Position numbers and translations under genes: made by a program. Source: Patescibacteria group bacterium (lineage in GTDB: Bacteria; Patescibacteriota; Minisyncoccia; Phycocordibacterales; UBA12079). From it: a stretch of 40,290 nt of DNA. How positions within the stretch are numbered: position 1 is the stretch's first letter; each line of letters opens with the position of its first letter. Below the pieces are notes generated by a model. It was not told the origin of the DNA, did no database searches, and saw only the letters and a list, made by a program, of their open reading frames with translations. This document shows, one piece after another, positions 12,080 through 28,345 of this stretch. Where the stretch lies: assembly GCA_018817595.1 (NCBI GenBank), contig JAHITU010000019.1, forward strand, positions 1 to 40,290, given 5' to 3'.

Positions 12080-12184
12080 ATTAAAATCTCCTTTCTATTT
12101 TTTTGTTTAAATTAACTATCTAATTAAACAGTACAACAGCTTATTAAAAAAATCAAGTTAAATTAAGTTCAACACAATAAGCTT

Positions 12185-12336
12185 AAGATGAACACCACAG
12201 ACCCAAAAAGTTTTTAGGTAAGTCTGACATAATCGCTGACAACGAAAGAGATATTTTGATTGCTAATAGTGAAGCACATCGCTTTGCTATTAAATTTCAT
12301 AAGCAAAAAAGATCTAAAGCTTTTCTTAGGAATTAG
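12185..12336 (+). pseudogene. uvrC 3'-end remnant (duplicate of 10851-11002)
   Basis: This 152-bp stretch matches the last 50 codons of uvrC including the TAG stop, at a constant offset of 1334. There are only four mismatches, all within the first 50 bp and all at third codon positions that leave the encoded residues unchanged (Asp, Pro, Lys, Ser). The last 102 bp are identical. It has no start codon and is not a gene. It is probably the end of the former uvrC left behind when the segment carrying the repeat-protein gene was inserted. Confidence 0.9.
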
Positions 12337-12997
12337 ATTTTTGTTTTCTTATTTTAAAAAATAAAATTACTACCACTAAAATTATTACAAAAAGTAAAAT
12401 TGGTAAAAAGGTAAATAAAGTCATTTTGTTTGTAAAGGCAGAATGCCAAGGCTTATCAAAAATATTTTCTTTAACTTTTATTAATTGTTTAAAGGTTTCA
12501 AAAGTTGTGCTTAATGGAAATGATTCTATTTCACCTACAGCTAAAACATATTTTCCTTTGTTTTCTGGGTTAGAAACTTTAATTAAATATTCACCAAAAG
12601 GAACCTGTGCTTTAAATTCAGGACCTTTCCAATACCAATCACCTGCAAATTCTTCATAGAATCTTTCCCATCGAAAAGACTCTCCGTCGAGGAATATTAC
12701 TTGGTTGTCCTCCTTATCAATAACTTTTACTGAATAGTCCTTGTAAGTTTCTGGAAGGTCAGGGCTTAAAATACCTAAATATAATTCAAAGTCATTTTCT
12801 GAATTGATGGTATAAATTACTTCTTCACCTGAAAGTTCTCCATAATAAGCCTTAGATATTTCAGGTTCAATTACTTCGATATTTGTTTGATCAGCTATAT
12901 AATTAGGTTGATGAGCTTCTGTTGTTGTAGGATTTAAAATCAATAGATTTATAAACAGAAATAAAAAAGCATAATATATTTTAGTATTTGTTTTCAT
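12326..12997 (-). CDS. Secreted or membrane-anchored protein, beta-rich, unknown function
   Basis: This 223-residue protein has an N-terminal signal peptide (residues 1-28, ending near TTTEAHQ) and a C-terminal membrane segment (about 193-215) followed by a short basic tail (KIRKQKSNS). The layout is typical of a surface protein with a single anchor. The extracellular part is beta-rich and contains EVIYTINSENDFELYLGILSPD and KAQVPFGEYLIKVSNPENKGKYVLAVG, resembling the C-terminal pre-peptidase type of beta-sandwich. The last three codons and stop lie inside the uvrC remnant, so before the insertion this gene and uvrC converged and overlapped by 11 bp. An extended -10 box ends seven bases before the ATG. 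Confidence 0.7.
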   Translation of the reverse strand: MKTNTKIYYAFLFLFINLLILNPTTTEAHQPNYIADQTNIEVIEPEISKAYYGELSGEEVIYTINSENDFELYLGILSPDLPETYKDYSVKVIDKEDNQVIFLDGESFRWERFYEEFAGDWYWKGPEFKAQVPFGEYLIKVSNPENKGKYVLAVGEIESFPLSTTFETFKQLIKVKENIFDKPWHSAFTNKMTLFTFLPILLFVIILVVVILFFKIRKQKSNS

Positions 12998-13004
12998 TTT
13001 TTAA

Positions 13005-13013
13005 ATTATATCA
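13005..13013 (-). promoter_or_regulatory. Extended -10 promoter, leaderless type
   Basis: On the minus strand TGATATAAT ends seven bases before the ATG at 12997, so the transcript should begin at or next to the start codon. No Shine-Dalgarno sequence is present. Confidence 0.55.
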
Positions 13014-13161
13014 AACCTTAAATAAAAGATTAGTTATTTTGTGGGTAACTAGAATAAAAAAATATTAATAAAAACCAATTTTTATTAACACCTTTAAGTA
13101 AAATTTTTTTAGGTTTGAGTTATAATAATATTAGGTGTTTATTTCTTAATTTAAAATAATT

Positions 13162-14299: not shown

Positions 14300-14875
14300 A
14301 TGAAATACACTAAAGAAAAACTTGTATCTTTTTTTAAATCTAATGGGCGAATGCCTAGCTATTCTGAACTAGCCAAACTTTATGGTTTTAAATCAAAGAA
14401 CTCTGCCTATTCTCTAGCGAGCAATTTTATAGACCAAGATATCCTAAGAAGAGATTCAAAAGGCTTTTTAATTCCAGGAGAGCAGTTTAATGGAATCCAA
14501 ATTTTAGGGACAGTTCAGGCTGGTTTTCCTGCCTTTGCATCAGAAGAAAAAGGCGAGCATCTATCATTAGATGAATGGTTGGTAAACGAACACGATGCCA
14601 CTTATTTATTAAGAGTCTCAGGTGACTCTATGATTGATGCGGGAATACTTGAGGGTGATTATGTTGTTGTTGAACGGACACAGGACTTTTCTGTCGGGGA
14701 TATTGTTATTGCTGAAGTGGATGATGAATGGACTATGAAATACCTGCGTATTAAAAATAATAAATATTATCTTGAAGCGGCAAATAATGAATACCCAGAT
14801 ATTTACCCAAAAGGTGAATTAAAAATACACGCAGTAGTTCGTTCTTTAGTGAGAAAATATGAAAAAAATAAATAA
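14300..14875 (+). CDS. LexA/UmuD-like S24 autoproteolytic repressor
   Basis: This 191-residue protein has an N-terminal winged-helix part (about residues 15-60, GRMPSYSELAKLYGFKSKNSA). The C-terminal S24 peptidase domain has cleavage site Ala74-Gly75 (VQAGFPA), catalytic Ser110 (SGDSM) and Lys147 (WTMKYL). This is the layout of LexA: DNA binding followed by RecA-stimulated self-cleavage. The LexA box in its own promoter supports an autoregulated SOS repressor rather than a UmuD subunit. It overlaps the start of the downstream polymerase gene by 17 bp, so both rise together after DNA damage. A phage-type repressor role is less likely because no phage genes are nearby. Confidence 0.9.
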   Translation: MKYTKEKLVSFFKSNGRMPSYSELAKLYGFKSKNSAYSLASNFIDQDILRRDSKGFLIPGEQFNGIQILGTVQAGFPAFASEEKGEHLSLDEWLVNEHDATYLLRVSGDSMIDAGILEGDYVVVERTQDFSVGDIVIAEVDDEWTMKYLRIKNNKYYLEAANNEYPDIYPKGELKIHAVVRSLVRKYEKNK

Positions 14876-16148
14876 TAAAAAAAATATTTTTGTTCATATT
14901 GACGCTGATGCTTTTTTTGCTTCAGTCGAACAAGTGCTTCATAGAGAACTTAAGGGAAAAGCTATCGTGGTTGGTCAAAATGGAGGGATTGTTTCTGCTT
15001 TGAGTTATCCAGCCAAAGATTTGGGTGTCTCTCGTGTATTACCAATTTTAACTGTTCGTAAAAAATACCCATCAGTTCATATCGTGGCATCTGATTTCCA
15101 CGCTTATGGGATTTTTTCACAAAGAATGGATAATATAATACGAAATCATTTTCCAAATCTAGTAAAAAACTCAGTGGATGAAGGGTCAATAGAAATAAGC
15201 AAGTGGATAGATACTTTCGACGAGGCAAAAGAATTAATCAAAAAATTACAAAGAGAATTGTATCAAAAACTAGGATGCACATTTTCTTTTGGTATTGCTC
15301 GGACTCCATTACTAGCAAAGCTTGCTTCAGGAATGAATAAACCACACGGAATTACTATATTAAATGACCAAAATGTAGAAGAAAAGATTTATCATAAACC
15401 TGTAAATTGTCTTTCTGGTATTGGAAAACAGGGATATATAAAATTACAGAAAAATAGAATAAATACGATTGGGGATTTTGCAAAGGCTGACGCAAATTGG
15501 CTTCGATATACTTTTTCTATTTCAATGCCCGCCTTACAAAAACAAGTTCTCGGCGAGGTAGTAGATATTCCCAAACAAAAAGAAGATATTAAAAGTATGA
15601 GTCGGGACAGGTCTTTCCTTGCAACAGATAGCTATGGTTATCTTTATAGTCAGATGTCTATGAATATAGAACATCTCGCTCAGAGAATGAGAAAAGAAAA
15701 TCTCTTTACTAAAAGAATTGGCTTAAGACTTCGTAATCAAAACCTTGATCACACACAATCGTTCGTTACTCTTTCATCACAAACAAGAGATATTGAATAT
15801 TTATTATCAGAAGCTAAAAAACTTCTTGATGAATTATATCAAGAAGGTGTCTTGTATAGACAGGTTTCAATAACTTGTGCCGGTCTTGGTGGTGCTCCTA
15901 TGCAAAATGATTTGTTTGGAGAATTAAATAGTTCCGAATCAAGAGATAATCTTTTTTATATAATTGATGATTTGGAAAATAAATTTGGCAAGTCATGTGT
16001 AGGTCTGGCGAGTAGTCTCCAGGCCAAAGACAATCTTGAAAAAATACATCTAAAATGTGTTGAAGGGGACACATACCCCCACCAATTACTCCCAGGAGAA
16101 GAAATCAAAAAGAGATTGTTGTATCCATTTTTAGGAGAGATTAATTAA
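14859..16148 (+). CDS. Y-family translesion DNA polymerase (UmuC/DinB-like)
   Basis: This 429-residue protein is an error-prone polymerase that copies past lesions. Palm motifs are VHIDADAFFASVEQ near the N-terminus (metal-binding Asp) and NSVDEGSIEI (Asp-Glu pair of the active site). Other family segments are CTFSFGIARTPLLAKLASGMNKPHGI and LSGIGKQGYIKLQKNRINTIGDFAKA (HhH-like thumb), then a little-finger domain (about 250-360). The length fits UmuC/ImpB-type enzymes. Its ATG lies inside the end of the repressor gene, giving a two-gene SOS operon. No beta-clamp motif was checked in detail. Confidence 0.93.
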   Translation: MKKINNKKNIFVHIDADAFFASVEQVLHRELKGKAIVVGQNGGIVSALSYPAKDLGVSRVLPILTVRKKYPSVHIVASDFHAYGIFSQRMDNIIRNHFPNLVKNSVDEGSIEISKWIDTFDEAKELIKKLQRELYQKLGCTFSFGIARTPLLAKLASGMNKPHGITILNDQNVEEKIYHKPVNCLSGIGKQGYIKLQKNRINTIGDFAKADANWLRYTFSISMPALQKQVLGEVVDIPKQKEDIKSMSRDRSFLATDSYGYLYSQMSMNIEHLAQRMRKENLFTKRIGLRLRNQNLDHTQSFVTLSSQTRDIEYLLSEAKKLLDELYQEGVLYRQVSITCAGLGGAPMQNDLFGELNSSESRDNLFYIIDDLENKFGKSCVGLASSLQAKDNLEKIHLKCVEGDTYPHQLLPGEEIKKRLLYPFLGEIN

Positions 16149-17168: not shown

Positions 17169-17198
17169 CCTGCCTGCCCATGCGCGCCGGCAGGCAGG
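17169..17198. repeat. GC-rich palindromic repeat
   Basis: Arms CCTGCCTGCC and GGCAGGCAGG enclose CATGCGCGCC. One of five related palindromes in the window (also 26717, 27319, 28290, 34468). It stands out strongly from the AT-rich background. Confidence 0.85.
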
Positions 17199-17230
17199 GA
17201 ACATAGCAAAATGTCCTCTTGGGGGTATGA

Positions 17231-17271
17231 AAAAATATGGCTCTATTAAGCCATATTTTTAGTCTGCTCCG
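17231..17271 (-). terminator. Terminator hairpin with tRNA-3'-like flank (left copy)
   Basis: A perfect 12-bp stem (AAAAATATGGCT / AGCCATATTTTT) has a 6-nt loop and is followed on its right by AGTCTGCTCCG. On the minus strand it follows the toxin gene and a GTTCGAAC T-loop-like sequence at 17284-17291. The same module recurs at 26699-26779, there with a palindrome inserted in the loop. Confidence 0.7.
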
Positions 17272-17301
17272 TTTAGTAGACGACGTTCGAACCTGTGTGG
17301 T

Positions 17302-17811
17302 TTAACATCTTTTCGAAATATTATAATTTCTTCCTATTTCTGTTTTGAAACGAGGTCTTATATTTTCGGTTCTTCTTATTAGTAAAATTAATTTTTCAGA
17401 ATCCTGTTTGTTTAATTTATCTCTCAAGGATGCCATTCCTTCTGACTTCCAACTTGTTAAAACTTCTTTATCTTCTGTTTTAGGGTCTTCATTTATTATA
17501 ATCATACTGTCTTTTTCCAAACATCCTTGATAAGCAAAGTGTTTGTCAAGAAAAAAAGCATCACAAAGATTTCCTGTTGGATATATTATTGATTTATTTT
17601 TTTCTTTTCCAAAATAAATGAAAAATCTTTTATTCTTTTTTTCTATACAATCATTGAAAAAATCTAATAAATCTCTAAAAACTTTATAGGTACGAGATGT
17701 TATAAGATAATACATCACCTCATTTCTTCGTGTTTCTCCTAATATAAGTATAAAATGTTTGATTGTGGGGGAATTTCTACAATCAATAATTTCTCCAAAT
17801 TCATACTTCAT
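17302..17811 (-). CDS. Putative toxin partner of a Panacea antitoxin
   Basis: This 169-residue protein has no recognised family. The N-terminal part (YEFGEIIDCRNSPTIKHFILIL, then MYYLITSRTYKVFRDLLDFF) alternates hydrophobic strands in a way that recalls SH3-like barrels of the PemK/MazF type, but no catalytic residue can be assigned. The C-terminal half is charged and Lys/Arg-rich. The toxin role rests on context: it starts one base after the stop of the Panacea-domain gene, and that domain is known from two-gene toxin-antitoxin systems with very diverse toxins. Downstream lies the terminator/tRNA-like module at 17231. Confidence 0.5.
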   Translation of the reverse strand: MKYEFGEIIDCRNSPTIKHFILILGETRRNEVMYYLITSRTYKVFRDLLDFFNDCIEKKNKRFFIYFGKEKNKSIIYPTGNLCDAFFLDKHFAYQGCLEKDSMIIINEDPKTEDKEVLTSWKSEGMASLRDKLNKQDSEKLILLIRRTENIRPRFKTEIGRNYNISKRC

Positions 17812-17812
17812 T

Positions 17813-18331
17813 TTATTTAAAGTTAGGAAGTATATTTTCTATATTTAAACTATTAGCTAAAGAATAGTCTATAACAGAATTATTGCTTGTAAGTTGCCAA
17901 GGTTTTTCTCTATGTGTTTTTTCAGATATAACACTAGCTTTAGTTTGTTTAAATTCTGTAGATATACTTTTAATTAAATTTCTTTCAAATGGTGCTAGTT
18001 TGTTTATTTCACAATTTTTAGAATTATTTATGACTCTTCTCCCAAATTCATCTTTGTCTTTTTTGAGATTTATAAATTTAGATAATTGTGATTTATATTT
18101 ACCTTCTAAATCAGAGTTTATTAACAAATCTATTTCATTTTTTATTGTAGTTGGTACTGGTCCGTAAGGAAGTTTAAAATATATATCGCCAGTAACAGAA
18201 GAACCTCTTCTATTATAAGAGATAAAATCTACATAATAAAAAAGTTTAAGGAGTTTTGTGACATACAAATTATTTACATTTTCTGCAAAGTAAGAAGATA
18301 TTATTCCAATTTTTTCAAAATCAACTTTCAT
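17813..18331 (-). CDS. Panacea (DUF4065/SocA-like) antitoxin
   Basis: This 172-residue protein carries the Panacea-domain hallmarks: an N-terminal helical pair with TKLLKLFYYVDFISYNRRG, the beta-strand segment SVTGDIYFKLPYGPVPTTI, and a C-terminal helix set ending with SEKTHREKPWQLT. Panacea proteins neutralise partner toxins, with SocA and phage GepA-like proteins as relatives. It is the first gene of a two-gene unit, consistent with antitoxin-first order. A minus-strand TATAAT ends six bases before the ATG, so the message should be leaderless. Confidence 0.8.
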   Translation of the reverse strand: MKVDFEKIGIISSYFAENVNNLYVTKLLKLFYYVDFISYNRRGSSVTGDIYFKLPYGPVPTTIKNEIDLLINSDLEGKYKSQLSKFINLKKDKDEFGRRVINNSKNCEINKLAPFERNLIKSISTEFKQTKASVISEKTHREKPWQLTSNNSVIDYSLANSLNIENILPNFK

Positions 18332-18337
18332 AATTAA

Positions 18338-18343
18338 ATTATA
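18338..18343 (-). promoter_or_regulatory. Leaderless -10 box of the toxin-antitoxin unit
   Basis: On the minus strand TATAAT is followed by six bases (TTAATT) and the ATG at 18331. The spacing equals that at 14288, 25789 and 27508. No -35 consensus was recognised. Confidence 0.5.
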
Positions 18344-18409
18344 TAACTTTTAATTGATTTAGTTTAACTGTAGTTGGGGATAATTACAAGAAAATTTGTT
18401 TTTTGTTTT

Positions 18410-18577
18410 TTAAATACCCATTTCCCAAATTTCATAAGCTTCGTCAATATCTAGACCTAAATCATCCATAAGTTCTTGAATTTCTTGTGCTTCTCCAATA
18501 TCTAAATTGTAATCTCTTGATATTTCTAAGATATTATCATCTTCGTTTATATTATAATCTTGAGTTTCTTCATCCAT
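18410..18577 (-). CDS. Small acidic helical protein (55 aa)
   Basis: ATG at 18577 to TAA at 18410 gives 55 residues, strongly acidic with almost no basic residues. Two similar helical units follow each other: YNLDIGEAQEIQELM and LGLDIDEAYEIWEMG share L-D-I-x-E-A-x-E-I. This internal symmetry and the lack of stop codons suggest a real protein, perhaps a UBA-like or adaptor helix bundle; that is inference. It starts six bases after the stop of the membrane protein at 18584, so they probably share an mRNA. Confidence 0.55.
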   Translation of the reverse strand: MDEETQDYNINEDDNILEISRDYNLDIGEAQEIQELMDDLGLDIDEAYEIWEMGI

Positions 18578-18583
18578 ATTTAT

Positions 18584-18961
18584 TTATTGTTTTTTGATAA
18601 AAAATTTGTAAATAATTAATTTAAGAATAAAAAAGAAAATTATTGATGAAAATATAGCTATTGGTAAAGGATAAATATTATATTTATTTACTAAATTTCT
18701 ACAATTATTGAGAGACTCTTCTGACCATTTATCAAGATTTGCCCTTCTATTATTTATAACTTCCATCTCTTTTGCTCCGAGAATATCATAACTATTTATT
18801 AAATTTGCAATAGAATTTGTTTTTTGTTGTAATTCAATTTGAAAATTACTATAACATTTTCTATAAAGTTTATATGATGATAAATTTATAATATAGATAA
18901 AAAATACAAAAGTAAAAATTATCAAAAATATATTTTTTAATATGTTTTTTCGAATTTTCAT
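18584..18961 (-). CDS. Two-TM membrane protein with extracytoplasmic helical middle
   Basis: This 125-residue protein has membrane segments at about residues 9-28 and 99-119, with a basic C-terminal tail. The helical middle (QQKTNSIANLINSYDILGAKEMEV and NCRNLVNKYNIYPLP) loosely resembles LemA-type helices but is too divergent to assign. It belongs to a run of same-strand small membrane genes (20048 down to 18410) with intergenic gaps of 1-6 bases, suggesting a single operon. Confidence 0.55.
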   Translation of the reverse strand: MKIRKNILKNIFLIIFTFVFFIYIINLSSYKLYRKCYSNFQIELQQKTNSIANLINSYDILGAKEMEVINNRRANLDKWSEESLNNCRNLVNKYNIYPLPIAIFSSIIFFFILKLIIYKFFIKKQ

Positions 18962-18962
18962 A

Positions 18963-19256
18963 CTAATTTTTTATTTTCCAAATGGAAGTTAGGAATAATA
19001 TTGAGGTAATAAAATCTATAACTACCCAAACTTCCTTATCTAAATGGAATGGAAAAAAGGGATTAAAAGCTATTGCGATAACTCCCATTATAATTGTCCA
19101 AGTGATGTTTTCTTTTTTTATAGATAAATATCCAAGATATACTCCAATACCAAGTACAACCCATCGTAACAATTGATAATAGCCATAAGGCCATATACTA
19201 GGTATTGCTAGTAACAACATTATGATTCCAATTATAGTAATAATATTTTTTTTCAT
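18963..19256 (-). CDS. DUF6804-like small membrane protein
   Basis: This 97-residue protein has three to four membrane segments. The PSIWPYGYYQLLRWVVLGIGVYLGY and FNPFFPFHLDKEVWVVIDF segments match, from memory, DUF6804 membrane proteins, whose function is unknown. It lies five bases from the gene upstream and one base from the gene downstream in the same-strand run. Confidence 0.7.
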   Translation of the reverse strand: MKKNIITIIGIIMLLLAIPSIWPYGYYQLLRWVVLGIGVYLGYLSIKKENITWTIIMGVIAIAFNPFFPFHLDKEVWVVIDFITSILFLTSIWKIKN

Positions 19257-19261
19257 ATTAT

Positions 19262-19612
19262 TTAAAATGTTTTAATAAAGTCTTTGTCTGTGTCGTTATC
19301 AGTATAAATAATTTCGCAATAATCTCTAAGAAAACTTCCTTGATATTCGATTGGGTTATAGTTCCAACTTTTTACATTATTCCATTTCTCGTTTTCTACT
19401 TCATAAATAGCTAAACAATCTAGTTTCCTCTGAGCCACATACTCCAAATCTTCTTTATTTTTTTCTGCTTGTAATTCTACCCACTGTTGTTCTTTTATTG
19501 AATTTTGTTTATTTACTTGAACAGCATAATAAAAACCACCTAAAATAATACTAATTATTATAAGTGTCAAAGGACCAGAGAGCCTGTTTATTTTTTTAAA
19601 AAAATTTTTCAT
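19262..19612 (-). CDS. Membrane-anchored protein of unknown function (116 aa)
   Basis: The start was set at the ATG at 19612, giving 116 residues. Longer in-frame starts would run through the end of the upstream gene and encode low-complexity Ile/Lys sequence. A single membrane segment (about residues 14-33) precedes an extracytoplasmic domain with two cysteines (KLDCLAIYEVE, RDYCEIIYTD) that may form a disulfide. The layout matches the neighbour at 19614-20048, so the two may be distant paralogues. No family recognised. Confidence 0.6.
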   Translation of the reverse strand: MKNFFKKINRLSGPLTLIIISIILGGFYYAVQVNKQNSIKEQQWVELQAEKNKEDLEYVAQRKLDCLAIYEVENEKWNNVKSWNYNPIEYQGSFLRDYCEIIYTDNDTDKDFIKTF

Positions 19613-19613
19613 A

Positions 19614-20048
19614 TTAATTTTTATATTTTTCAACTTCTTTTGAGTAGTTTGGTCTTTGGTTATAAGACCAATTATCTTCATTTGTGGAAGAATTATCATA
19701 ATCAACACTAAAGATTTCGTCTCCTGAGAAATAATCAACTATAACAAAACTTCCTGATTCGTTAGGTGGGGTTCCAAATAATTCTAATCCATGAGTGTAT
19801 AAACAAGTATCTAATTTAGAACTATAGAAAATATCATAAAAATATGGAGTTGCTATTTTATAAGTTTCGTTTAGTTGATTTTTGGCTTGTTCCCGATAAT
19901 TTGCACATTTTTCTCTTTTATCAAAAAGAGTGTTTGATGAGTCTTCTGTAGAAATTTTCTCTTTTGAAATATTTCCTGAAAAGGTATACCCTAAAAAAAT
20001 ACCTATTATAAGAGTCATAAATAATTGTATTAAATATTCTTTTTTCAT
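19614..20048 (-). CDS. Membrane-anchored protein of unknown function (144 aa)
   Basis: This 144-residue protein has an N-terminal membrane anchor (about residues 6-24). The extracytoplasmic domain has FDKREKCANYREQAKNQL, then YDIFYSSKLDTCLYTHG and a C-terminal VDYFSGDEIFSVDY. The segment (F/I)-Y-S-x-K-L-x-T-C-L-Y recurs, as I recall, in many Patescibacteria surface proteins of unknown role. Two cysteines could form a disulfide. First gene of the run that continues to 18410; the next gene starts one base after its stop. Confidence 0.6.
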   Translation of the reverse strand: MKKEYLIQLFMTLIIGIFLGYTFSGNISKEKISTEDSSNTLFDKREKCANYREQAKNQLNETYKIATPYFYDIFYSSKLDTCLYTHGLELFGTPPNESGSFVIVDYFSGDEIFSVDYDNSSTNEDNWSYNQRPNYSKEVEKYKN

Positions 20049-20182
20049 ATTAATTCTAATTTAATTATTAATATATTGATAAGGTTTTATTGTTATTTAA
20101 AATAATAACATAAATTTTATAAAAAAATCTCTAAAACCTGCAGATAATGAATCTCTGGGATTTCATAAGTTTACCTGCAGAT

Positions 20183-20214
20183 TTTAAAGACCTAGCGAAT
20201 GCTAAGTCTTTAAA
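20183..20214 (-). terminator. Hairpin after the secreted-protein gene
   Basis: A 14-bp stem (TTTAAAGACCTAGC against GCTAAGTCTTTAAA, one mismatch) with a GAAT loop lies directly after the stop at 20216. The following T-run is weak on the minus strand. Confidence 0.5.
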
Positions 20215-20215
20215 T

Positions 20216-20569
20216 TTAGTTAATATATTTAACAAACAAAGTTTTATCCAAAGAACAACTTCCTTGATACCAGATAGGGCAGGAATCAGTTATTCCGTTA
20301 GTTAATAATACTTTTTGTCCTTGTAAAATAGTCATTAAGTTCTTTTTAACTGAAGAACTAACTGAAGTCATTTCCAACCAATGATTCATAGTAATACAAG
20401 AAACAATCGTTCTCCCATCAGATGAATAAACAGCATGGTCTACACCACAATTATTATTTGTAGGTTTGTAGTAATTAGAATAAGCACTTCCATTTTCATA
20501 GGAAGCATTAACATTACCTAAACCTAACACAAAAAACCCTACCAACACAAAGAAAAATATTTTTTTCAT
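20216..20569 (-). CDS. Small secreted cysteine-containing protein (117 aa)
   Basis: This 117-residue protein has a clear signal peptide (MKKIFFFVLVGFFVLGLGNVNA, cleavage near residue 22). The mature part of about 95 residues has four cysteines (CGVDHAV, SCITMNHW, DSCPIWYQGSC) and few charged residues, typical of a disulfide-stabilised secreted protein. No family is recognised. It is separated from the membrane-protein run by about 170 bases containing two ACCTGCAGAT direct repeats and a terminator-like hairpin. Confidence 0.6.
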   Translation of the reverse strand: MKKIFFFVLVGFFVLGLGNVNASYENGSAYSNYYKPTNNNCGVDHAVYSSDGRTIVSCITMNHWLEMTSVSSSVKKNLMTILQGQKVLLTNGITDSCPIWYQGSCSLDKTLFVKYIN

Positions 20570-20582
20570 ATTTTTATTTTCT

Positions 20583-20657
20583 ACTTGGACGTAGCACGTC
20601 CAAGTTTTTAATTAATTTTGAAACTTTTTAGATTACTTGGACACCGGGTGTCCAAGT
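20583..20657. repeat. Pair of related hairpins (ACTTGGAC...GTCCAAGT)
   Basis: Two perfect palindromes lie 29 bp apart: 20583-20605 (10-bp arms, ACTTGGACGT, AGC loop) and 20635-20657 (11-bp arms, ACTTGGACACC, one-base centre). They share ACTTGGAC/GTCCAAGT and differ in the core. They begin 13 bases upstream of the secreted-protein gene start. Their role is unknown. Confidence 0.7.
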
Positions 20658-20764
20658 AGTTTAAAGTTGGTTTCAAAATGCTAATAATTAATAATGACAA
20701 CTAAATTATTATTGGGTTTTTGTCATTTATATAATTATTTAATTAAAAAATTGAAAACAAAAAG

Positions 20765-20863
20765 CCCGTTACTAGGAAGGCTCCTTACGGAAATCCTCAA
20801 CTGCAGTTTCCCACAGTGACGCACTCAACGCCCTAATAACGGGTTTTTTATTGTTGAGTGCGT
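20765..20863. ncRNA. Candidate structured RNA with interleaved stems (pseudoknot topology)
   Basis: Stem A pairs 20765-20776 with 20832-20843 (12 bp, one mismatch; CCCGTTACTAGG with CCTAATAACGGG) and is followed by TTTTTT on the plus strand. Stem B pairs 20819-20829 with 20853-20863 (11 bp, perfect; ACGCACTCAAC with GTTGAGTGCGT). The order A5'-B5'-A3'-B3' is that of a pseudoknot or of two mutually exclusive hairpins. The 55-nt loop of stem A has further short hairpins. On the minus strand stem A is also followed by a T-run. Neither strand encodes a protein here. Together with 20583-20657 and a hairpin at 20998-21025, this fills the 704-bp gap 20570-21273. Confidence 0.4.
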
Positions 20864-20997
20864 TTTAAAACCATATCCTTTAATTACTTAAAGGGGTTAG
20901 GTCATAATCTATTACTTACTATTGAAAATAATAGATAAAACTTATTTAGTTGTTCCTAATACAATATCAAAAATTTAAAATAAATGATAGGGCTAAA

Positions 20998-21025
20998 ACA
21001 TCTTTATATGTGTATAAAGATGTTC
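20998..21025. other. Perfect hairpin in the intergenic gap upstream of the methyltransferase
   Basis: The 12-bp arms AACATCTTTATA and TATAAAGATGTT have a 4-nt loop (TGTG). A TATAAT-like box at about 21220 (ATATATAATC) is the likely promoter of the methyltransferase operon, leaving a leader of about 45 nt. Apart from a run of eight G residues near 21055, I see nothing else in 20870-21273. Confidence 0.5.
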
Positions 21026-21273
21026 GCCCAAATATTTTCATTAGAAAATGTTTTAGGGGGGGAATTAAACTAATAAAAAATTTTATAAAAGTTGTATAAA
21101 ATCTTTATCTTTTCTTCATATCTAATTTAGTATAATTGAATATAGAAGTAATTTTTGACGAAATCTTTTGAATGTTGTTTATAAACTTATACTCCTGGTT
21201 TTTTCATAAAAAGTAATATATAATCTAATCATAAGAAAGAATATTTAAAATTTAAAATCAAGTAAATAGAAAA

Positions 21274-22452
21274 ATGAAAAATAAAAAATTTACTTATATT
21301 GATATTTTTGCAGGCTGTGGAGGATTGTCTCTTGGTCTTTATAATTCTAAAAAATGGAGAGGTATTTTTGCTGTTGAAAAAAACAAAGATGCATTTATGA
21401 CATTAAAACATAATTTAATTGACAGTAAAAATCATTTTAATTTCCCTGAATGGTTAGATGAAAAAGAACACGATATAAATGAAATTTTAAAAAATAAAAA
21501 TTTAAGAAAATATGCTGGAAAAATAGATCTTGTAGTCGGAGGACCTCCTTGTCAGGGGTTTTCTTTAGCTGGTAGGAGAAATGAAAAAGATGCTAGAAAT
21601 TCTTTGGTTTATTCATATTTAAAATTTATTAAAGTTATTCAGCCTAAAATTCTTTTTTTTGAAAATGTAAAAGGTTTTGGAGTATCATTTAAAGGAACAA
21701 ATAAAAAACCAATGTCTGAAACAGTAATAGAGGAATTACAAAAAATTGGATATAAAGATGCTCGTTTTGAAATTTTAGATTTTTCTCAATTCGGTATTCC
21801 TCAATCAAGAAAAAGGATTGTAATTATTGCTACAAAAAACGGAAAGGCTCAAGATTTTTTTTCAATATTAAAAAAACAATCACAAAAAATATTAAAAAAG
21901 AAAGGGCTTAATTCTTATATTACTTTAGGTGAAGCAATTTCTGATTTGTATAAAGGAAATAGTTGCATTAAATCACCTGATTCAGTAGGATTTACTACTG
22001 TGGAATATAAACCAATTAAATCTAAGTACCAAAAGTTGATGAGACAGAATATTGACCATAATATTCCTGATAGTCATAGATTTGCTAACCATACAACTAA
22101 AACATTGAAGAAATTTTCACAAATTATAAATGAAAAACTTTCATCAAAAAAAATACAACAGAAATTTTGTACAAAAAAAACAAGTACAAGACTTTTGGAC
22201 CAAAACAAACCTAGTCCAACAATAACAACCCTTCCTGATGATTATGTTCACTATAAAGAATCTAGAATTCTAACAGTAAGAGAATACGCAAGAATTCAGT
22301 CGTTCCCAGATGATTTTGAATTTAAAGGTAAATATACGACAGGTGGAAAATTAAGAAAAAAAGAAGTACCAAGATACACTCAGATAGGGAATGCAATTCC
22401 TCCACTTTTTGGGGAACAAGTTGGTGTTATATTAGCTCAATTATTAAAATAA
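21274..22452 (+). CDS. C5-cytosine DNA methyltransferase
   Basis: This 392-residue enzyme transfers a methyl group from S-adenosylmethionine to cytosine C5 in DNA. The motifs appear in order: motif I DIFAGCGGLSLGL (about residues 11-23), motif IV GGPPCQGFSLAG with catalytic Cys93, motif VI FFENVKG, motif VIII QFGIPQSRKRIVIIA, a target-recognition region (about 210-330), and motifs IX/X TVREYARIQSFPDDF and QIGNAIPPLFGEQV. It is first in a three-gene operon; the GHKL gene starts one base after its stop. No restriction-type nuclease gene is adjacent, so it may mark self DNA for the downstream signalling pair. Confidence 0.95.
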   Translation: MKNKKFTYIDIFAGCGGLSLGLYNSKKWRGIFAVEKNKDAFMTLKHNLIDSKNHFNFPEWLDEKEHDINEILKNKNLRKYAGKIDLVVGGPPCQGFSLAGRRNEKDARNSLVYSYLKFIKVIQPKILFFENVKGFGVSFKGTNKKPMSETVIEELQKIGYKDARFEILDFSQFGIPQSRKRIVIIATKNGKAQDFFSILKKQSQKILKKKGLNSYITLGEAISDLYKGNSCIKSPDSVGFTTVEYKPIKSKYQKLMRQNIDHNIPDSHRFANHTTKTLKKFSQIINEKLSSKKIQQKFCTKKTSTRLLDQNKPSPTITTLPDDYVHYKESRILTVREYARIQSFPDDFEFKGKYTTGGKLRKKEVPRYTQIGNAIPPLFGEQVGVILAQLLK

Positions 22453-22453
22453 T

Positions 22454-24613
22454 ATGGAAAAATTACAATTTAGAATTAGTTCAGCTACAAAAAGTATTTT
22501 AGGAAAAGATTTAATTGTTGATAAAAATATAGCAATTTTTGAATTGGTAAAAAATGCGTATGACGCCAGTGCTGAAAAAGTGGATATTTATATTAATGAT
22601 GAAAAAATCACTATTATTGATAATGGAGAAGGAATGGATATAAATGATATAAAAAATAAATGGTTGTATGTTGGGTATTCTGAGAAATCAGACAATAAGA
22701 ATATTATAAAAAAAGGTTCTAAAAGAAGAACTTTTGCAGGTGCAAAAGGAATCGGGAGACTTGCTTGTGATAGATTAGGAAAAGATTTGAGACTTATATC
22801 TATAAAAAATAAAAAAATTGAACAGCTTGATGTAAACTGGGGAGATTTCGAAAAAAGTTCAAAAATTGATTTTAATAAAATAGATATAGAACATACAAAT
22901 CTTAAAAAAAGTCCTTCTAAAGAATTTAAGAAAGGGACAATACTAGAGATAACTTCATTAAGAGAAAGATGGGATGAGGAAGATTTGAAAAAACTAAAAA
23001 GTCACTTAATAAAGCTTATTAGTCCAGTAAAAGAAGATAAAGAGGTTTTTGATATTTTTATTCACTACTATGAAGAAAAGGCTATTAAAATTAATAATTT
23101 TATTTTTGATAAATTAGGATTAAAAACTACACAAATAGATGTTGAAGTGTCTTTAGACGGTAAGTTTATTACTACAGAACTAATTGATCGAGGTGATAGA
23201 ATCTATAAAATTATAGAAAAAAATAAATGGAGTAAAAAAACTGCAAATATAAAATTTCAACTTTTTTACTTAAGTCCCCCGACAAAATTATCATTTTGGC
23301 ATTCAATGAAAATAGATTCTGTAAATTTTGGATCTGTATTTTTATATAAAAATGGGTTTAGAGTTTATCCATATGGAAATCCTGGAGATGATTCTCTTGG
23401 ACTAGATAGAAGAAAAGGGCAGGGTCGCACTCGTCATTTTGGAACCAGAGAAGTTATTGGGAATATTATTATTAATAATACATCTGATGAATTTAAAGAA
23501 ACTTCAAGTCGAGACGGGGGATTATTGAATACAAAAGGATTTCAAGAATTGAAAGAATTATTTAAAAAAAATGTATTAAGACGACTTGAAATATACGCAA
23601 TTGATACCCTGAAGTGGACATATGACGGAGGAACACAAAAGGAGTTTTTTCCTGAAGAAAAAGAAAATGAGATAAAAAAATTAATTCAAAAACTTACAAA
23701 ATCAAATGATTTTGTAAGTCTTGAGTATGATTATTCTAAATTCGAGAAACAAATTGAAAAAAAAGTTAATGAAGGATTTCAAGGAGCAACAGGAGTATTA
23801 AAAAAACAAGCAGAAAAAACTAATAATATAAAATTAAAAAAAGCAGTAGAGAAAATAGAAAAAGTTCAAAAAGAACAGAAAGATTTAATAAGAAAACAAG
23901 AAACAAAAATTGAAAAAAAAGATGAGCAAGTGTCTGCCTTAAAAAGTTTTACAAATAAAGACCTTGAAAACCTTCAAAGTTATCATCATCAAATAGGTAT
24001 TAGTACAAAAACAATAGATAATTATATTCTTCACTCTTTCAATATACTTAAATCTAAAAAATATGAAAAATTAGAAAAATATTTACAAAAAATCAAAAAA
24101 GAAAATGATAAAATTAATTCAATTGCTAGATTTGCAACTGGAAGTGGTATGAATGAGCTAGCTATAAAAAAAGAACGAAGTTTAAACAATATAATAAAAA
24201 AGTATTTGAAAGATGATTATATTCCTGTTGCATCAGACGGTCTTGAAATTCAGATAAAAGATAATACAACCAATGATTTCATTACTTCATTTAGACCATT
24301 CGATATTTCTATGATTTTTGATAATCTTCTTGATAATGCAAAAAAAGCAAAAGCTAATAATTGTGTAGTAGAATTATGTGGAGGGGTAAATGTTTTAGAA
24401 GTTTTTGTAAAAGATAATGGTGTTGGAATAAATAAAAGATTTAAAGATAATATAGAAGAAATTTTTGATTTAAAAACTTCTTCTACTGATGGCGCAGGAA
24501 TAGGGTTGTTTAATGTTCAGGAAATATTAACATCAATTTTTAATGCAAGTATTTCAGTTAAACAAAATACACCAAAAAAAGGATTAACCTTCACATTAAC
24601 TTTTACTAAATAA
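22454..24613 (+). CDS. Double GHKL ATPase / histidine-kinase-like sensor
   Basis: This 719-residue protein has two GHKL ATP-binding modules. The N-terminal one (about residues 1-250) is Hsp90/MutL-like, with FELVKNAYDA (E30, N34), DNGEGM (D56) and GAKGIGRLACDRLG (96-109). A middle region (about 250-430) is followed by a Lys/Glu-rich coiled coil (about 440-500) and a DHp-like helix with LQSYHHQIGIS (H511, H512). The C-terminal module (about 610-719) is of histidine-kinase type: FDNLLDNAKKA, DNGVGI and DGAGIGLF. The first module resembles the paraMORC/MORC GHKL ATPases of restriction-modification loci. The second module plus the next gene suggest phosphotransfer to a receiver. It is predicted to be cytoplasmic. 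Confidence 0.85.
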   Translation: MEKLQFRISSATKSILGKDLIVDKNIAIFELVKNAYDASAEKVDIYINDEKITIIDNGEGMDINDIKNKWLYVGYSEKSDNKNIIKKGSKRRTFAGAKGIGRLACDRLGKDLRLISIKNKKIEQLDVNWGDFEKSSKIDFNKIDIEHTNLKKSPSKEFKKGTILEITSLRERWDEEDLKKLKSHLIKLISPVKEDKEVFDIFIHYYEEKAIKINNFIFDKLGLKTTQIDVEVSLDGKFITTELIDRGDRIYKIIEKNKWSKKTANIKFQLFYLSPPTKLSFWHSMKIDSVNFGSVFLYKNGFRVYPYGNPGDDSLGLDRRKGQGRTRHFGTREVIGNIIINNTSDEFKETSSRDGGLLNTKGFQELKELFKKNVLRRLEIYAIDTLKWTYDGGTQKEFFPEEKENEIKKLIQKLTKSNDFVSLEYDYSKFEKQIEKKVNEGFQGATGVLKKQAEKTNNIKLKKAVEKIEKVQKEQKDLIRKQETKIEKKDEQVSALKSFTNKDLENLQSYHHQIGISTKTIDNYILHSFNILKSKKYEKLEKYLQKIKKENDKINSIARFATGSGMNELAIKKERSLNNIIKKYLKDDYIPVASDGLEIQIKDNTTNDFITSFRPFDISMIFDNLLDNAKKAKANNCVVELCGGVNVLEVFVKDNGVGINKRFKDNIEEIFDLKTSSTDGAGIGLFNVQEILTSIFNASISVKQNTPKKGLTFTLTFTK

Positions 24614-24615
24614 TC

Positions 24616-25494
24616 ATGAATTTAAAATATAAAATATTATGGATTGAGGATGAAAAAGATTGGATAGAATCGGAAATAGTATTTGTTCAAAAATATTTAG
24701 AGAAATATGGTTTTATGTTGGAGTATGAAAATCCAGAAAAGTATGAAAATTACGACTTTTCTCAATTTGATATTATTGTTGTTGATTTTAACCTTGCGAA
24801 TGAAGAAAAAGGTTCAAATGTTATTAAAAAAATAAGAGAACAAGAACTTTATACTGAAATACTTTTTTATTCTGTCGATGGAGAAAAAAAATTAAGAAGA
24901 TTAGTAATGGACTTAGATGGGGTTTATTGTGCTAGTAAAGATACTTGTCGAAATAAATTAGAAAAATTAATTTATACAACAATTCGAAAAACTCAAGATC
25001 TAAATAATCTTCGTGGTCTAGTTATGGCAGAAACTAGTGAATTAGACCCTTTAATTAAAAAAATTCTTTGCTTAATTACTAAAAAAAATAAAGTTTCTGA
25101 AGAAAGAATTTTTAAAAGATGTAAAAAAACGTTAGATAAAAAATTAGATAAAGTTATTGAAATGGAATCTTATGTTGTTTTTAATAATTTAATAAATCTT
25201 ATCGATACAAGACATTTTAGTGCCGGAGTTTCTTATGAGTTTTTATATGATTTCTCTAAAGATGAAAATAATAATATAGATAAAGAAATAGTTTCTCCAT
25301 ATAAGAAAAAAATTATAGAAGAAAGAAATAATCTTGCTCATAACCCTGAAGATTCTAGTACTTCTGATAAAATGGTAATTAATAAAAACGGTGAACTGAT
25401 TGAATATACAGAAGATAAATTTATTGAAATTAGAAAAAATATTCAAAAATATAAGATAGTTTTTCAGGAAATCATAGATGATTTAAAAAAATAA
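24616..25494 (+). CDS. Receiver domain fused to a HEPN-like C-terminal domain
   Basis: This 292-residue protein starts two bases after the GHKL stop. Residues 6-115 form a receiver domain with all key residues: D12 (acid pocket, WIEDEKDW), phosphoacceptor D57 (IVVDFNL), S86 (FYSVD) and K108 (CASKD). The C-terminal all-helical part (about 125-292) contains IIEERNNLAHNPE, with R237 and H242 forming the R-x4-H motif of HEPN ribonucleases, often seen as RNxLAH. No DNA-binding domain is present, so it is not an ordinary response regulator. I infer that phosphorylation by the GHKL/kinase protein controls an RNA-cleaving or otherwise toxic output. Confidence 0.75.
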   Translation: MNLKYKILWIEDEKDWIESEIVFVQKYLEKYGFMLEYENPEKYENYDFSQFDIIVVDFNLANEEKGSNVIKKIREQELYTEILFYSVDGEKKLRRLVMDLDGVYCASKDTCRNKLEKLIYTTIRKTQDLNNLRGLVMAETSELDPLIKKILCLITKKNKVSEERIFKRCKKTLDKKLDKVIEMESYVVFNNLINLIDTRHFSAGVSYEFLYDFSKDENNNIDKEIVSPYKKKIIEERNNLAHNPEDSSTSDKMVINKNGELIEYTEDKFIEIRKNIQKYKIVFQEIIDDLKK

Positions 25495-25651
25495 AAAACT
25501 TGAATCGGTTTTTTAAAAAAAATTATAAAAGAAGTAATCTACCTCTACATCACTGAATAATCAAATAATAATTGAGGTGGAATAGTAGTTAAAATAAAAG
25601 AGACAGTCACCGTTTATTTGATATATACTATTAACCCTAAGCAAAAAAACT

Positions 25652-25696
25652 ATGAAAAAATTCACTCGAAAATTACAAAAAGCTAATAAAAAATAA
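25652..25696 (+). CDS. Possible 14-residue basic peptide in its own transcription unit
   Basis: The frame encodes MKKFTRKLQKANKK. A TATACT box (25624-25629) lies about 22 bases upstream and a palindromic terminator follows 14 bases after the stop. The unit fills much of the 306-bp gap 25495-25800 downstream of the defence operon; the rest of that gap shows only an 8-bp hairpin at 25741-25763. The peptide is highly basic (7 of 14 residues Lys or Arg). It may be chance. Confidence 0.25.
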   Translation: MKKFTRKLQKANKK

Positions 25697-25709
25697 AAAC
25701 AAAAAATAG

Positions 25710-25740
25710 CAGGCACCCGGTGCCTGTAATTTTTTATATC
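25710..25740 (+). terminator. Intrinsic terminator (CAGGCACC core)
   Basis: A perfect 8-bp palindrome CAGGCACC-C-GGTGCCTG is followed by TAATTTTTTAT. Its core GGCACCCGGTGCC recurs at 26144-26162, and a near-identical core with one extra C at 26109-26123. Confidence 0.7.
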
Positions 25741-25785
25741 ACTTAGTAACTCAACTACTAAGTGGTTTTGGTTTTTAATGGTTTT

Positions 25786-25794
25786 TGATATAAT
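25786..25794 (+). promoter_or_regulatory. Extended -10 promoter, leaderless type
   Basis: TGATATAAT ends six bases before the ATG at 25801. The expected start of transcription falls on the start codon. Confidence 0.55.
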
Positions 25795-25800
25795 TTAAGT

Positions 25801-26040
25801 ATGGATAATATTAAAAATCGACAATTTTATATTAAAAAAATAAAGAAACTTTTTGAGTTGATTGATTCTGATGATTCGGAAAATGCCAACAAGGAATTAG
25901 ATGAATTAAAAAAGGATTACGAAATAATAGAAGATGATTTGTTTGGGGTTTTAGTTAGAATAGAAAGTTTTTTATTAAAATCAGAAAATATTTCACTTAA
26001 TGACATAAAAAGTGAATTTAATTCTGTTTTAAATAATTAG
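25801..26040 (+). CDS. Small acidic helical protein (79 aa)
   Basis: This 79-residue protein has no membrane or signal segment. It is predicted almost entirely helical and charged (KKLFELIDSDDSENANKELDELKKDYEIIEDD in its first half). No family recognised. The gene has a leaderless extended -10 promoter and a series of three hairpins downstream (26101-26221). It lies next to the methyltransferase/HEPN operon but is transcribed separately. Confidence 0.5.
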   Translation: MDNIKNRQFYIKKIKKLFELIDSDDSENANKELDELKKDYEIIEDDLFGVLVRIESFLLKSENISLNDIKSEFNSVLNN

Positions 26041-26100
26041 AAAAATAGGTCAACCACATTTTCAAACATTTATTTTAAATAGTATATACAAGAAAAATTA

Positions 26101-26166
26101 AAAAATTTGGCACCCCGGGTGCCAAATTTTTTAATATGCCTTTGTAGGCACCCGGTGCCTACAAAG
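26101..26166. repeat. Two adjacent perfect hairpins with GGCACCCGGTGCC-type core
   Basis: 26101-26131 has 15-bp arms (AAAAATTTGGCACCC) and a one-base centre. 26140-26166 has 13-bp arms (CTTTGTAGGCACC) and a one-base centre. Both could terminate transcription; a third copy of the core is at 25710. Confidence 0.75.
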
Positions 26167-26194
26167 TTTAAAAAATAAATAAAAAATAAAAAAT

Positions 26195-26227
26195 AAAAAA
26201 GTGCGCGCTTCGAGCGCGCACTTTTTT
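26195..26227. terminator. GC-rich intrinsic terminator
   Basis: Stem GTGCGCGCT / AGCGCGCAC with a TCG loop is flanked by six A on the left and six T on the right, so it can act in both directions between 25801-26040 (+) and 26326-26607 (-). Confidence 0.85.
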
Positions 26228-26325
26228 ATTTTTGTTCACGCCCGTCGACGCACTGGGGTAGGTAAGGAACCTGTGTGAGGTGAGTAATAATTAAAATTTA
26301 TAATTACTTCTCACGTAAAGATTGT

Positions 26326-26607
26326 TTAATTTGTTATAGTACTTGTTGCAGTTTCAGAATATGGTCCTCCAAAAGATGCATATACTGCAATAAAATAAAT
26401 AATAATTCCTAATATACCTAAACCTAAACCAATTTTTGCAACAGTTGTAAATTCATATTTTTTTTGAACAATTGAAAAAATTATTGCCAAAATTGAGAAT
26501 ATTATTGATATAACAGGGATAAACAGAAATGATAATATTGCAAGAATTCCTGAAATTAAACTTAGAATTCCCCATATTTGAGTTTTTTCATGATTATTTG
26601 TTTCCAT
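26326..26607 (-). CDS. DUF4190-like small membrane protein
   Basis: This 93-residue protein has a short polar N-terminus (METNNHEKTQIW). Two or three membrane segments follow (ILSLISGILAILSFLFIPVISIIFSILAIIFSIVQ in two pieces, and KIGLGLGILGIIIYFIAV), then a short Thr/Ser tail. The Gly-rich helices and the short charged hairpin between them resemble DUF4190-type proteins. Function unknown. It lies just inside the right boundary of the proposed island. Confidence 0.55.
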   Translation of the reverse strand: METNNHEKTQIWGILSLISGILAILSFLFIPVISIIFSILAIIFSIVQKKYEFTTVAKIGLGLGILGIIIYFIAVYASFGGPYSETATSTITN

Positions 26608-26698
26608 ATATTTTTTTTGATTAATTTTAATTTTAATAAATGAATTATAACAAAATTATAGAGGTTCGAACATAGGGAAAGTTTTGTGAGGTGTATAA

Positions 26699-26779
26699 AA
26701 AAATATGGCTTAATATCTACCTGCCCCTGCGCGCCGACAGGCGTGGGTAGGTAGGAAGCCATATTTTTAGTCTGCTCCG
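26699..26779 (-). terminator. Terminator hairpin with palindrome in its loop (right copy)
   Basis: The arms AAAAATATGGCTT and AAGCCATATTTTT and the flank AGTCTGCTCCG match the module at 17231-17271. Here the loop contains the GC-rich palindrome 26717-26754. Confidence 0.7.
26717..26754. repeat. GC-rich palindromic repeat inside a terminator loop
   Basis: Arms CTACCTGCCC and GGGTAGGTAG enclose an inner CTG...CAG hairpin. It is the long form of the CCTGCC family, with two arm changes that preserve pairing (G to A on one side, C to T on the other). The copy of the host terminator at 17231 lacks it. Confidence 0.8.
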
Positions 26780-26910
26780 GCGGCAGGACTCGACCCACAG
26801 TTACTAAATATATTTCTTCGCTATCACTCGAAATCTATTAAGTACTGTTGGTCGCGGCACGAAAAAGGACATTTAGTCCTTTTTCTATCACCGTTCGAGT
26901 CCTGCCACCG
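26778..26910. ncRNA. tRNA-derived inverted repeats forming a possible three-way-junction RNA
   Basis: Stem P1 pairs 26778-26793 with 26895-26910 (16 bp, one mismatch); both sides resemble the tRNA-Asn 3' end (TCGAGTCCTGCCGCCG). Inside are a perfect hairpin P2 (26861-26870 with 26876-26885) and an imperfect stem P3 (26794-26820 with 26829-26851). On the minus strand the structure runs into the terminator at 26699-26779. It may be tRNA rubble or a structured transcript. It fills most of the 356-bp gap 26608-26963. Confidence 0.35.
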
Positions 26911-26963: not shown

Positions 26964-27039
26964 TGGCTCCGGCGGCAGGACTCGAACCTGCGACAAAGCG
27001 ATTAACAGTCGCTTGCTCTACCAACTGAGCTACGCCGGA
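26964..27039 (-). tRNA. tRNA-Asn (anticodon GTT), CCA encoded
   Basis: On the minus strand the 73-nt body has a 7-bp acceptor stem (TCCGGCG / CGCCGGA), a D-arm GCTCAGTTGGTAGAGC, an anticodon loop CTGTTAA with GTT, a T-arm GCAGGTTCGAGTCCTGC and discriminator G. CCA is encoded at 26964-26966. Ten bases of its 5' end overlap the 3' end of the GIY-YIG gene. Fragments of the same tRNA lie on both sides (26778-26793 and 27305-27348). Confidence 0.95.
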
Positions 27040-27284
27040 ATGTTGTTTTTGAGAATTTTATTTCGAAATTCTCTTCCTGTACCTGATTTTAAAAATTTTT
27101 CACGAGCTCTTGCTTCAGAAAGAGTTTTACATTTTTCAGTATAAACTATTTTGAATGGAGCATAACTTTTATTTGATTTTGTTTGTTTTGAGTTATGTTC
27201 CTGAAGACGTCGTTCAATATCTTTAGTGAGACCAGTGTAGTAGTTTAGGTTTTTTAAACTTTGTAGAATGTAAACATAATACAT
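27030..27284 (-). CDS. GIY-YIG endonuclease domain protein (UPF0213-like)
   Basis: This protein is 84 residues from the ATG at 27284; an earlier ATG adds four residues. The single GIY-YIG domain begins MYYVYILQSLKNLNYYTGLT, with the two Tyr motifs (VYI and YTG), Arg in DIERRLQEHN and Glu in ARAREKFLKSG. Such small proteins are common in bacteria and may be genomic nucleases. It lies between tRNA-Asn, whose 5' end it overlaps, and a broken copy of the tRNA 5' half. A homing-like or tRNA-targeting role is possible but unproven. Confidence 0.85.
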   Translation of the reverse strand: MYYVYILQSLKNLNYYTGLTKDIERRLQEHNSKQTKSNKSYAPFKIVYTEKCKTLSEARAREKFLKSGTGREFRNKILKNNIPA

Positions 27285-27304
27285 ATTAGTTATCATAACA
27301 TTTA

Positions 27305-28236: not shown

Positions 28237-28345
28237 AGTCTATAAAGCAAGAAAAATCGCAAAGCGATTTTTCTGAAAGACTTTCGACTCCTGCCTGCCA
28301 CTGCGCGTCGGCAGGCGTGGGCAGGCAGGTTCGTCTTTATAGACT
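28237..28345. repeat. Composite inverted repeat: terminator plus GC palindrome framed by AGTCTATAAAG
   Basis: The outer arms are AGTCTATAAAG (28237-28247) and CTTTATAGACT (28335-28345). Inside are an 11-bp terminator hairpin (28250-28260 with 28264-28274, AGAAAAATCGC) and the 40-bp palindrome 28290-28329 with CCTGCCTGCC arms. The palindrome at 34468 is likewise flanked by TCGAAAG and GTCTATAAAG. Confidence 0.75.

Follow-up and report, generated by a model that had tools for sequence, protein, structure and literature searches.

What function could unite a DNA methylase, a protein with two GHKL domains and a receiver fused to a HEPN-like domain in a single operon? The question is raised by a window, by which we mean the whole analysed stretch of 40,290 nucleotides from a Patescibacteria group bacterium (contig JAHITU010000019.1). 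The initial annotation of this DNA described three genes in one direction, separated by 1 and 2 nt, and read them as a methylation-aware abortive-infection system in which DNA status is perceived by the GHKL protein and passed on to a HEPN output. The ORF coordinates bear out the trio, its gaps and its single direction on the + strand. The operon and its parts were delimited as follows.

21274..22452, + strand: C5-cytosine DNA methyltransferase, 392 aa (PF00145, motifs)
22454..24613, + strand: predicted soluble double-GHKL sensor histidine kinase, 719 aa (ORF, Pfam, alignment, profile matches)
22526..22912, + strand: HATPase_c_3, N-terminal GHKL ATPase of the kinase, residues 25-153 (Pfam, invariant motif columns)
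23987..23989, + strand: codon of H512, predicted phospho-accepting histidine (invariant in 61/61, HK853 alignment)
24305..24604, + strand: HATPase_c, C-terminal catalytic ATP-binding domain of the kinase, residues 618-717, with N, G1 and G2 boxes (Pfam)
24616..25494, + strand: receiver-HEPN protein, 292 aa (ORF, Pfam, homologue alignment, model)
24637..24972, + strand: receiver domain, residues 8-119 (PF00072, model, PDB receiver matches)
24784-24786, + strand: phospho-acceptor D57 of the receiver (invariant in 39 homologues)
25000..25488, + strand: HEPN-like all-helical output domain, residues 129-291 (motif, Pfam tally, model helices)
25324-25326 (R237) and 25339-25341 (H242), + strand: RNNLAH motif (42/42 in the alignment)
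25709..25727, + strand: terminator-like hairpin, 3' of the operon

The hairpin probably marks the end of the transcription unit. As had been remarked initially, no endonuclease or helicase gene occurs within the three-gene operon; a small GIY-YIG ORF (27030-27296, - strand) is found only past the terminator, where it overlaps the end of a tRNA-Asn. A 79-aa ORF (25801-26040) is also located beyond the hairpin, and no link between it and the trio was made.

The first protein is, judging by its family match and motifs, a C5-cytosine DNA methyltransferase. It matches PF00145 DNA_methylase with E=1.6e-59, the motifs FAGCGG, GPPCQ, ENV, QSRKR and QIGNAIPP are all present, and C93 (codon 21550-21552) corresponds to the catalytic PCQ cysteine. 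The closest methylase relative found, with 64% identity, belongs to a Gracilibacteria locus (L112).

The second protein consists of a paraMORC/MutL-like N-half, a coiled linker, a DHp region and a HATPase_c domain. Pfam recognises both GHKL domains, HATPase_c_3 with 1.2e-22 (residues 25-153) and HATPase_c with 8.4e-19 (residues 618-717). The N-half displays the Bergerat motifs ELVKN, DNGEGM and GAKGIGR, the corresponding columns (ELVKN, DxGxGM and GxKGxGR) being invariant in 37-40 homologues, and its profile weakly matches structures of MutL, PMS1 and Hsp90. The profile of the C-half matches complete DHp-CA kinases (ZraS 2.9e-17, HK853 about 3e-16), and residues N624, N628, G680, G682 and G684 of HATPase_c are invariant in the homologue alignment. 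H512, which is invariant in 61/61 kinases, is aligned on the H-box phospho-histidine of HK853 in profile alignments with two HK853 entries, and is predicted to be the phospho-accepting histidine. The preceding H511 occurs in 12/61 kinases and was dropped as a candidate since it is unconserved. Kinase activity is not certain, since the position after H512 is acidic (D) in only 5/61 kinases, unlike in HisKA kinases. The sequence features expected of a phosphorelay are present, namely a predicted phospho-histidine in the DHp, the N and G boxes of the CA domain and the receiver aspartate.

The third protein starts with a receiver (Response_reg PF00072, residues 8-119, 3.7e-07), of which D57 is invariant across 39 homologues. 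The HEPN-like nature that the initial annotation ascribed to its C-terminal domain is supported by motif and family matches. Across 42 receiver proteins sharing this layout, chosen by position and length without use of the motif, R237 and H242 of RNxxAH are each found in 42/42, N238 in 95% and A241 in 83%. When the C-terminal domains of 39 members were compared alone with Pfam, the top families were HEPN_RiboL-PSP (6), HEPN_Swt1 (6) and HEPN_MAE_28990 (3), the best HEPN_RiboL-PSP score being 5.5e-6; the window's own C-terminal domain matched no Pfam family. An AlphaFold2 model of the whole protein, with 39 homologues in the alignment, is confident (mean pLDDT 89, pTM 0.85) and shows a receiver in which strands alternate with helices, and after it an all-helical domain, in which the RNNLAH motif closes helix 223-242. 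The C-terminal domain modelled alone is helical as well (mean pLDDT 81). A Foldseek comparison of the whole model with the PDB returned receivers only, PorX first, and the C-terminal part yielded no significant match and no HEPN (best E=0.79). The HEPN assignment is therefore backed by sequence but not yet by structure comparison. Pfam detected no DNA-binding domain in the output protein of the window or its homologues. As to the residues that the initial annotation had named, C93, D57 and R237/H242 are in place, and of the pair H511/H512 only the latter is conserved.

An alignment of five kinase proteins was used to scan 84,980 species genomes. This resulted in 80 loci, 61 of which, the window included, have a kinase of at least 200 bits and form the close set. 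A C5-methylase is encoded directly upstream of the kinase in 56/61 loci (median gap -1 nt) and an adjacent ORF directly downstream in 59/61 (median gap -4 nt), the genes mostly overlapping. Since loci were picked by the kinase alone, with no methylase or receiver criterion, this co-occurrence is not built in. The methylase of L096 is present and was missed because the kinase start was called early, and in L072 and L073 it is found one gene further upstream. According to the record titles, hosts include Bacteroidota, Sulfurimonas, Pseudomonas, Clostridia, Spirochaetales, Omnitrophota, Gracilibacteria and several archaea, hence in the search across genomes that the initial annotation had called for, the trio co-occurs widely, in both bacteria and archaea.

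Within the phylum a match over the N-terminal GHKL half above 250 bits was obtained in 3/380 genomes, the window's included; close kin of the window genome are without the trio and a comparable match is found in only 2/379 other same-phylum genomes. The kinase profile over the 380 genomes was swamped by ordinary histidine kinases. Used as a single-protein query against genome contigs, the window kinase retrieved no relative, whereas the five-protein alignment did find loci. Protein 3 had no tblastn match at 0.01 on plasmids, and among same-phylum genomes it gave receiver or chance matches only, for instance to L031 in a stop-containing frame. The 123 ORFs flanking homologues show a modest R-M/defence content, counted without a control set and therefore not used as strong evidence for defence islands.

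Several loci deviate from the common layout. The Gracilibacteria trio (L112:4793-9230) occurs in an organism with genetic code 25 and is open only with TGA read as glycine, its three genes containing 20, 35 and 16 TGA codons; its receiver protein bears a cysteine-rich insert, and a recombinase-like ORF is found at 11556-13040. A conserved 360-codon frame separates C5-methylase and kinase in L072 and L073 (4910-5989 in both), and the third gene is receiver-only. This frame presumably resembles HpaII-type restriction enzymes, and these loci possibly represent a variant with a real endonuclease. L002 and L003, from genomes of the window's order, are two-gene systems of a C5-methylase and a single-GHKL protein with an R-x4-H-like motif at its C-terminus, which in L002 is Pfam Hypoth_Ymh (1.9e-10). 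The methylase plus GHKL-Ymh relative shows the same parts and logic without the relay.

The output is variable. In thirteen close loci the receiver is shorter (about 225-247 aa) and a further, separate ORF of about 210-240 aa comes after it. Sixteen effector proteins from short-receiver loci, three of them encoded outside the close set, share H60, G61 and C99 as their only invariant residues upon alignment. Matches of the effector profile to legumain and caspase-1/-2 consistently cover the same H/C region but are not significant (E 0.2-1.2), for which reason the label caspase-like is a lead only. A Stenotrophomonas plasmid (L016:6635-7965) carries C5-methylase, kinase and short receiver; the ORF that comes next is unannotated and has HG and SC motifs resembling those of the caspase-like group.

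Pairs of related loci indicate how the variation arose. L101 and L118, both from Tenacibaculum, are 97% identical in the methylase and 98% in the kinase N-half versus 28% in the kinase C-half and 27% in the receiver, and 3.1 kb of matching DNA ends inside the kinase gene. The pairs L099/L106, L087/L122, L094/L103 and L089/L092 repeat this pattern of HEPN-type versus caspase-type outputs, and identity along the paired kinases drops abruptly ahead of the DHp. The DNA of the Flavobacterium pair L099/L106 is similar upstream, through the methylase and the kinase N-half, and again downstream, and similarity is lost over kinase C-half, receiver and effector, meaning that only the cassette was exchanged. 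As read from these alignments, the pairs reveal recombination inside the kinase gene. Furthermore, the kinase C-half tracks receiver identity far more closely than the N-half does, with a rank-correlation difference of 0.26-0.54 (bootstrap 95%, 58 core loci). The tie of the methylase to the kinase N-half over the C-half has the same direction and is not significant (interval -0.05 to 0.24, core set). From the pairwise swaps and the covariation of kinase C-half with receiver, we read sensing module and output cassette as separable parts that are joined by a specific kinase-receiver pair. A phosphorelay from H512 to D57 is likewise supported, as evidenced by the invariance of both residues, the covariation and the swapping of kinase C-half, receiver and output as a cassette. 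The relay of the initial reading is supported in this way, as is, by sequence, its HEPN output; defence, RNA cleavage and the perception of DNA status by the GHKL half are presumed.

The surroundings of the operon were analysed by means of a repeat search that covered the whole 815,563-base genome (34 contigs), and three features delimit its setting.

17248..17271, + strand: left-hand copy of an exact direct repeat of 24 bp, which possibly marks an attachment site or the boundary of an element
26756..26779, + strand: right-hand copy of that repeat, continuing into a fragment that resembles the 3' end of tRNA-Asn
26964..27039, - strand: tRNA-Asn (GTT), with synteny to relatives conserved beyond it but not towards the operon

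The 24-bp repeat brackets the trio (17248-26779), has no third copy in the genome even with 3 mismatches allowed, and holds part of a terminator-like hairpin. Four relatives retain the tRNA-Asn and the gene beyond it and nothing on the operon side, and the operon is located within a low-GC stretch. This setting suggests that the trio was inserted at a tRNA-linked site; an integrase was not identified in the bracketed segment. On predicted viral contigs 11 full-length homologues were found, nine with the HEPN motif and two of the short-receiver type; an adjacent C5-methylase is absent in 4/11. More distant relatives are found on plasmids, where they are accompanied by other methylases and other downstream genes (HNH, MBL-fold).

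The same region contains further genes and repeats. At 17302-18331 (- strand), between the two repeat copies, a SocA/Panacea antitoxin-like gene and a gene of unknown family are separated by 1 nt and possibly form a toxin-antitoxin pair. At 14300-16148 an S24 (LexA/UmuD-like) peptidase gene overlaps a DinB/UmuC polymerase gene in a UmuDC-like pair. This polymerase was not found in the ten genus and family relatives searched and was thus unusable as anchor for an empty site. Related GC-rich palindromic intergenic repeats (CTGCCTGCC...GGCAGGCAGG) are present at 17170-17271, 26717-26796 and 28291-28329. Two of the three adjoin the 24-bp repeat, and they are possibly a dispersed small element.

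The initial annotation knew of no described system with exactly this trio. That statement needs amendment, given that a related trio of C5-methylase, HATPase_c_3-HEF_HK-HATPase_c and Response_reg_2, without assigned output, was described in 2021 (Bellieny-Rabelo, PMC8011034). In that work the kinase/regulator pair with upstream C5-methylases was linked to R-M and paraMORC, and the HEF_HK (PF19191)/Response_reg_2 (PF19192) system was proposed to regulate R-M systems. The window family shares the architecture: a soluble kinase with HATPase_c_3, a DHp-like region and HATPase_c, an adjoining response regulator, and often a position downstream of a C5-methylase. The DHp and receiver domains, however, do not match those of the 2021 system. 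HEF_HK has no match at E<=10 in the window kinase and is found in 0/40 homologues (among the families listed in the Pfam tally), although the same search detected it in the Acinetobacter record CP040048, used as positive control. Response_reg_2 is absent in the window's protein 3, whose receiver matches classical Response_reg instead, and was found in 1/39 homologues, weakly (best E 0.0017); a 19-record Response_reg_2 search was without positive control. The PMC8011034 text consulted makes no mention of HEPN, and reports no output domain, effector exchange or archaeal members.

The other parts have precedents as well. ParaMORC/MORC GHKL proteins are known from R-M operons (Iyer 2008, PMC2292703), and Ymh, a HEPN domain, occurs in paraMORC-Ymh fusions (Anantharaman 2013, PMC3710099). 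With these the trio shares a GHKL ATPase beside DNA methylases and a HEPN as end effector, whereas in the window the HEPN-like domain belongs to a receiver protein of its own, with a histidine-kinase half placed between sensor and effector. Type I Shedu VcSduA, formerly paraMORC3, is a validated anti-phage protein with a GHKL N-terminus (PMC12137116). It resembles the trio in that a GHKL ATPase controls an effector, but it is a single protein with a PD-(D/E)xK nuclease and has no methylase or phosphorelay. PADLOC gave no match for protein 3 and only REase_II and TmtA for the kinase, in a release that may be without Detocs models. Detocs reportedly comprises three genes, for a kinase, a receiver and a cell-harming effector, with exchangeable effectors, and is said to have neither a DNA methylase nor a MutL/MORC-like sensor half. 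The likeness is in kinase, receiver and effector arranged in three-gene systems, to which the window trio adds the methylase and the MutL/MORC-like half. Detocs is listed as a defensive two-component system in the glossary of PMC11249213. In the open-licence literature no receiver-HEPN or caspase-like version of the trio was found; an earlier description elsewhere is possible. What this analysis adds is a separate branch, its assigned output and the evidence for cassette exchange, not a wholly new kind of system.

We consider it rather probable that the trio acts as a self/non-self alarm, i.e. a two-component abortive-infection system made of methylase, sensor kinase and receiver-HEPN. As expected for its family, the methylase would mark the host copies of a target site. 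The MutL/MORC-like N-half of the kinase would be an ATP-driven clamp that engages DNA, by itself or together with the methylase, and switches state when this DNA is unmarked or comes from an invader. This change would induce the C-terminal kinase to phosphorylate H512, from where the phosphate would pass to D57 of the receiver. The receiver would then free the fused HEPN domain, which may cut RNA, its presumed target, and stop growth before the invader multiplies. The sign of this control could also be reversed, the phosphate either activating or restraining the HEPN domain. The output would be modular, as relatives carry a receiver plus a predicted caspase-like peptidase in place of the receiver-HEPN. 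That the trio serves defence may be surmised from its families and its mobility.

Mobility would also fit a selfish addiction module with the same parts and methylation check that benefits the element itself, in which loss of the island leads to loss of methylation and to killing by residual kinase and HEPN, phage defence being a by-product. The element-like setting with its twice-only repeat and the break of synteny at the tRNA-Asn, the occurrence of homologues on predicted viral contigs and of more remote relatives on plasmids, as well as the fact that R-M systems are known to act in this way (PMC8011034), all fit. However, the Flavobacterium site keeps the system and exchanges its output only, which looks like selection on the output. 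The data hardly separate addiction from immune alarm since both share the mechanism, and we regard addiction as rather unlikely. That the GHKL protein is the restriction enzyme of a true type II R-M system, with kinase and receiver as accessories, is suggested by the match of the N-half to NF050001 'BbrUII/HgiDII family restriction enzyme' (2.5e-27) and to PADLOC REase_II models (1.5e-11); BbrUII/HgiDII systems also share the C5-methylase adjoining a GHKL protein. Yet the NF050001 match covers only residues 14-203, i.e. the GHKL domain, and its 95.7 bits are below the curated cut-off of 550 bits. Moreover, a search for a nuclease domain in the kinase protein found none, the window adds a kinase half and a receiver partner, and the single-GHKL relative L002 bears a HEPN (Ymh) at its C-terminus instead, which makes this explanation quite improbable.

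A regulatory two-component system that tunes neighbouring R-M genes, as published in 2021 for HEF_HK/Response_reg_2 (PMC8011034), would explain the receiver and kinase domains. It is hard to reconcile with an output that either resembles HEPN or is accompanied by a caspase-like protein, in which a DNA-binding domain was not detected, and with an operon in the window that has no restriction enzyme to regulate; we find it very improbable. Finally, the genes might share no immune function at all, for instance as a housekeeping RNA-turnover switch hitch-hiking with an orphan methylase, given that HEPN domains occur outside defence too. Conflict systems typically show such patchiness (3/380 same-phylum genomes), mobility and exchange of outputs, and to this last explanation we give the least credence.

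The alarm interpretation can be extended to the family, though with evenly divided confidence: it may constitute a widespread R-M-like immunity in which the restriction half is a sensor kinase instead of a nuclease, and in which the conserved sensing half is combined, through natural recombination within the kinase gene, with interchangeable kinase-receiver-effector cassettes, either HEPN RNase or caspase-like protease, in bacteria, archaea and predicted viruses. If true, DNA methylation, by which R-M systems classically mark self, would be linked to phosphorelay signalling and cell suicide, and an output would be supplied for an association whose only reported role, in 2021, was the possible regulation of R-M genes. 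HEPN versus caspase-like outputs at homologous sites would parallel the effector exchange in other bacterial immune systems. The cassette swaps are ready-made natural chimeras that mark the boundary between sensing and output, and they allow a direct test of what is detected by a MORC-like ATPase from prokaryotes.
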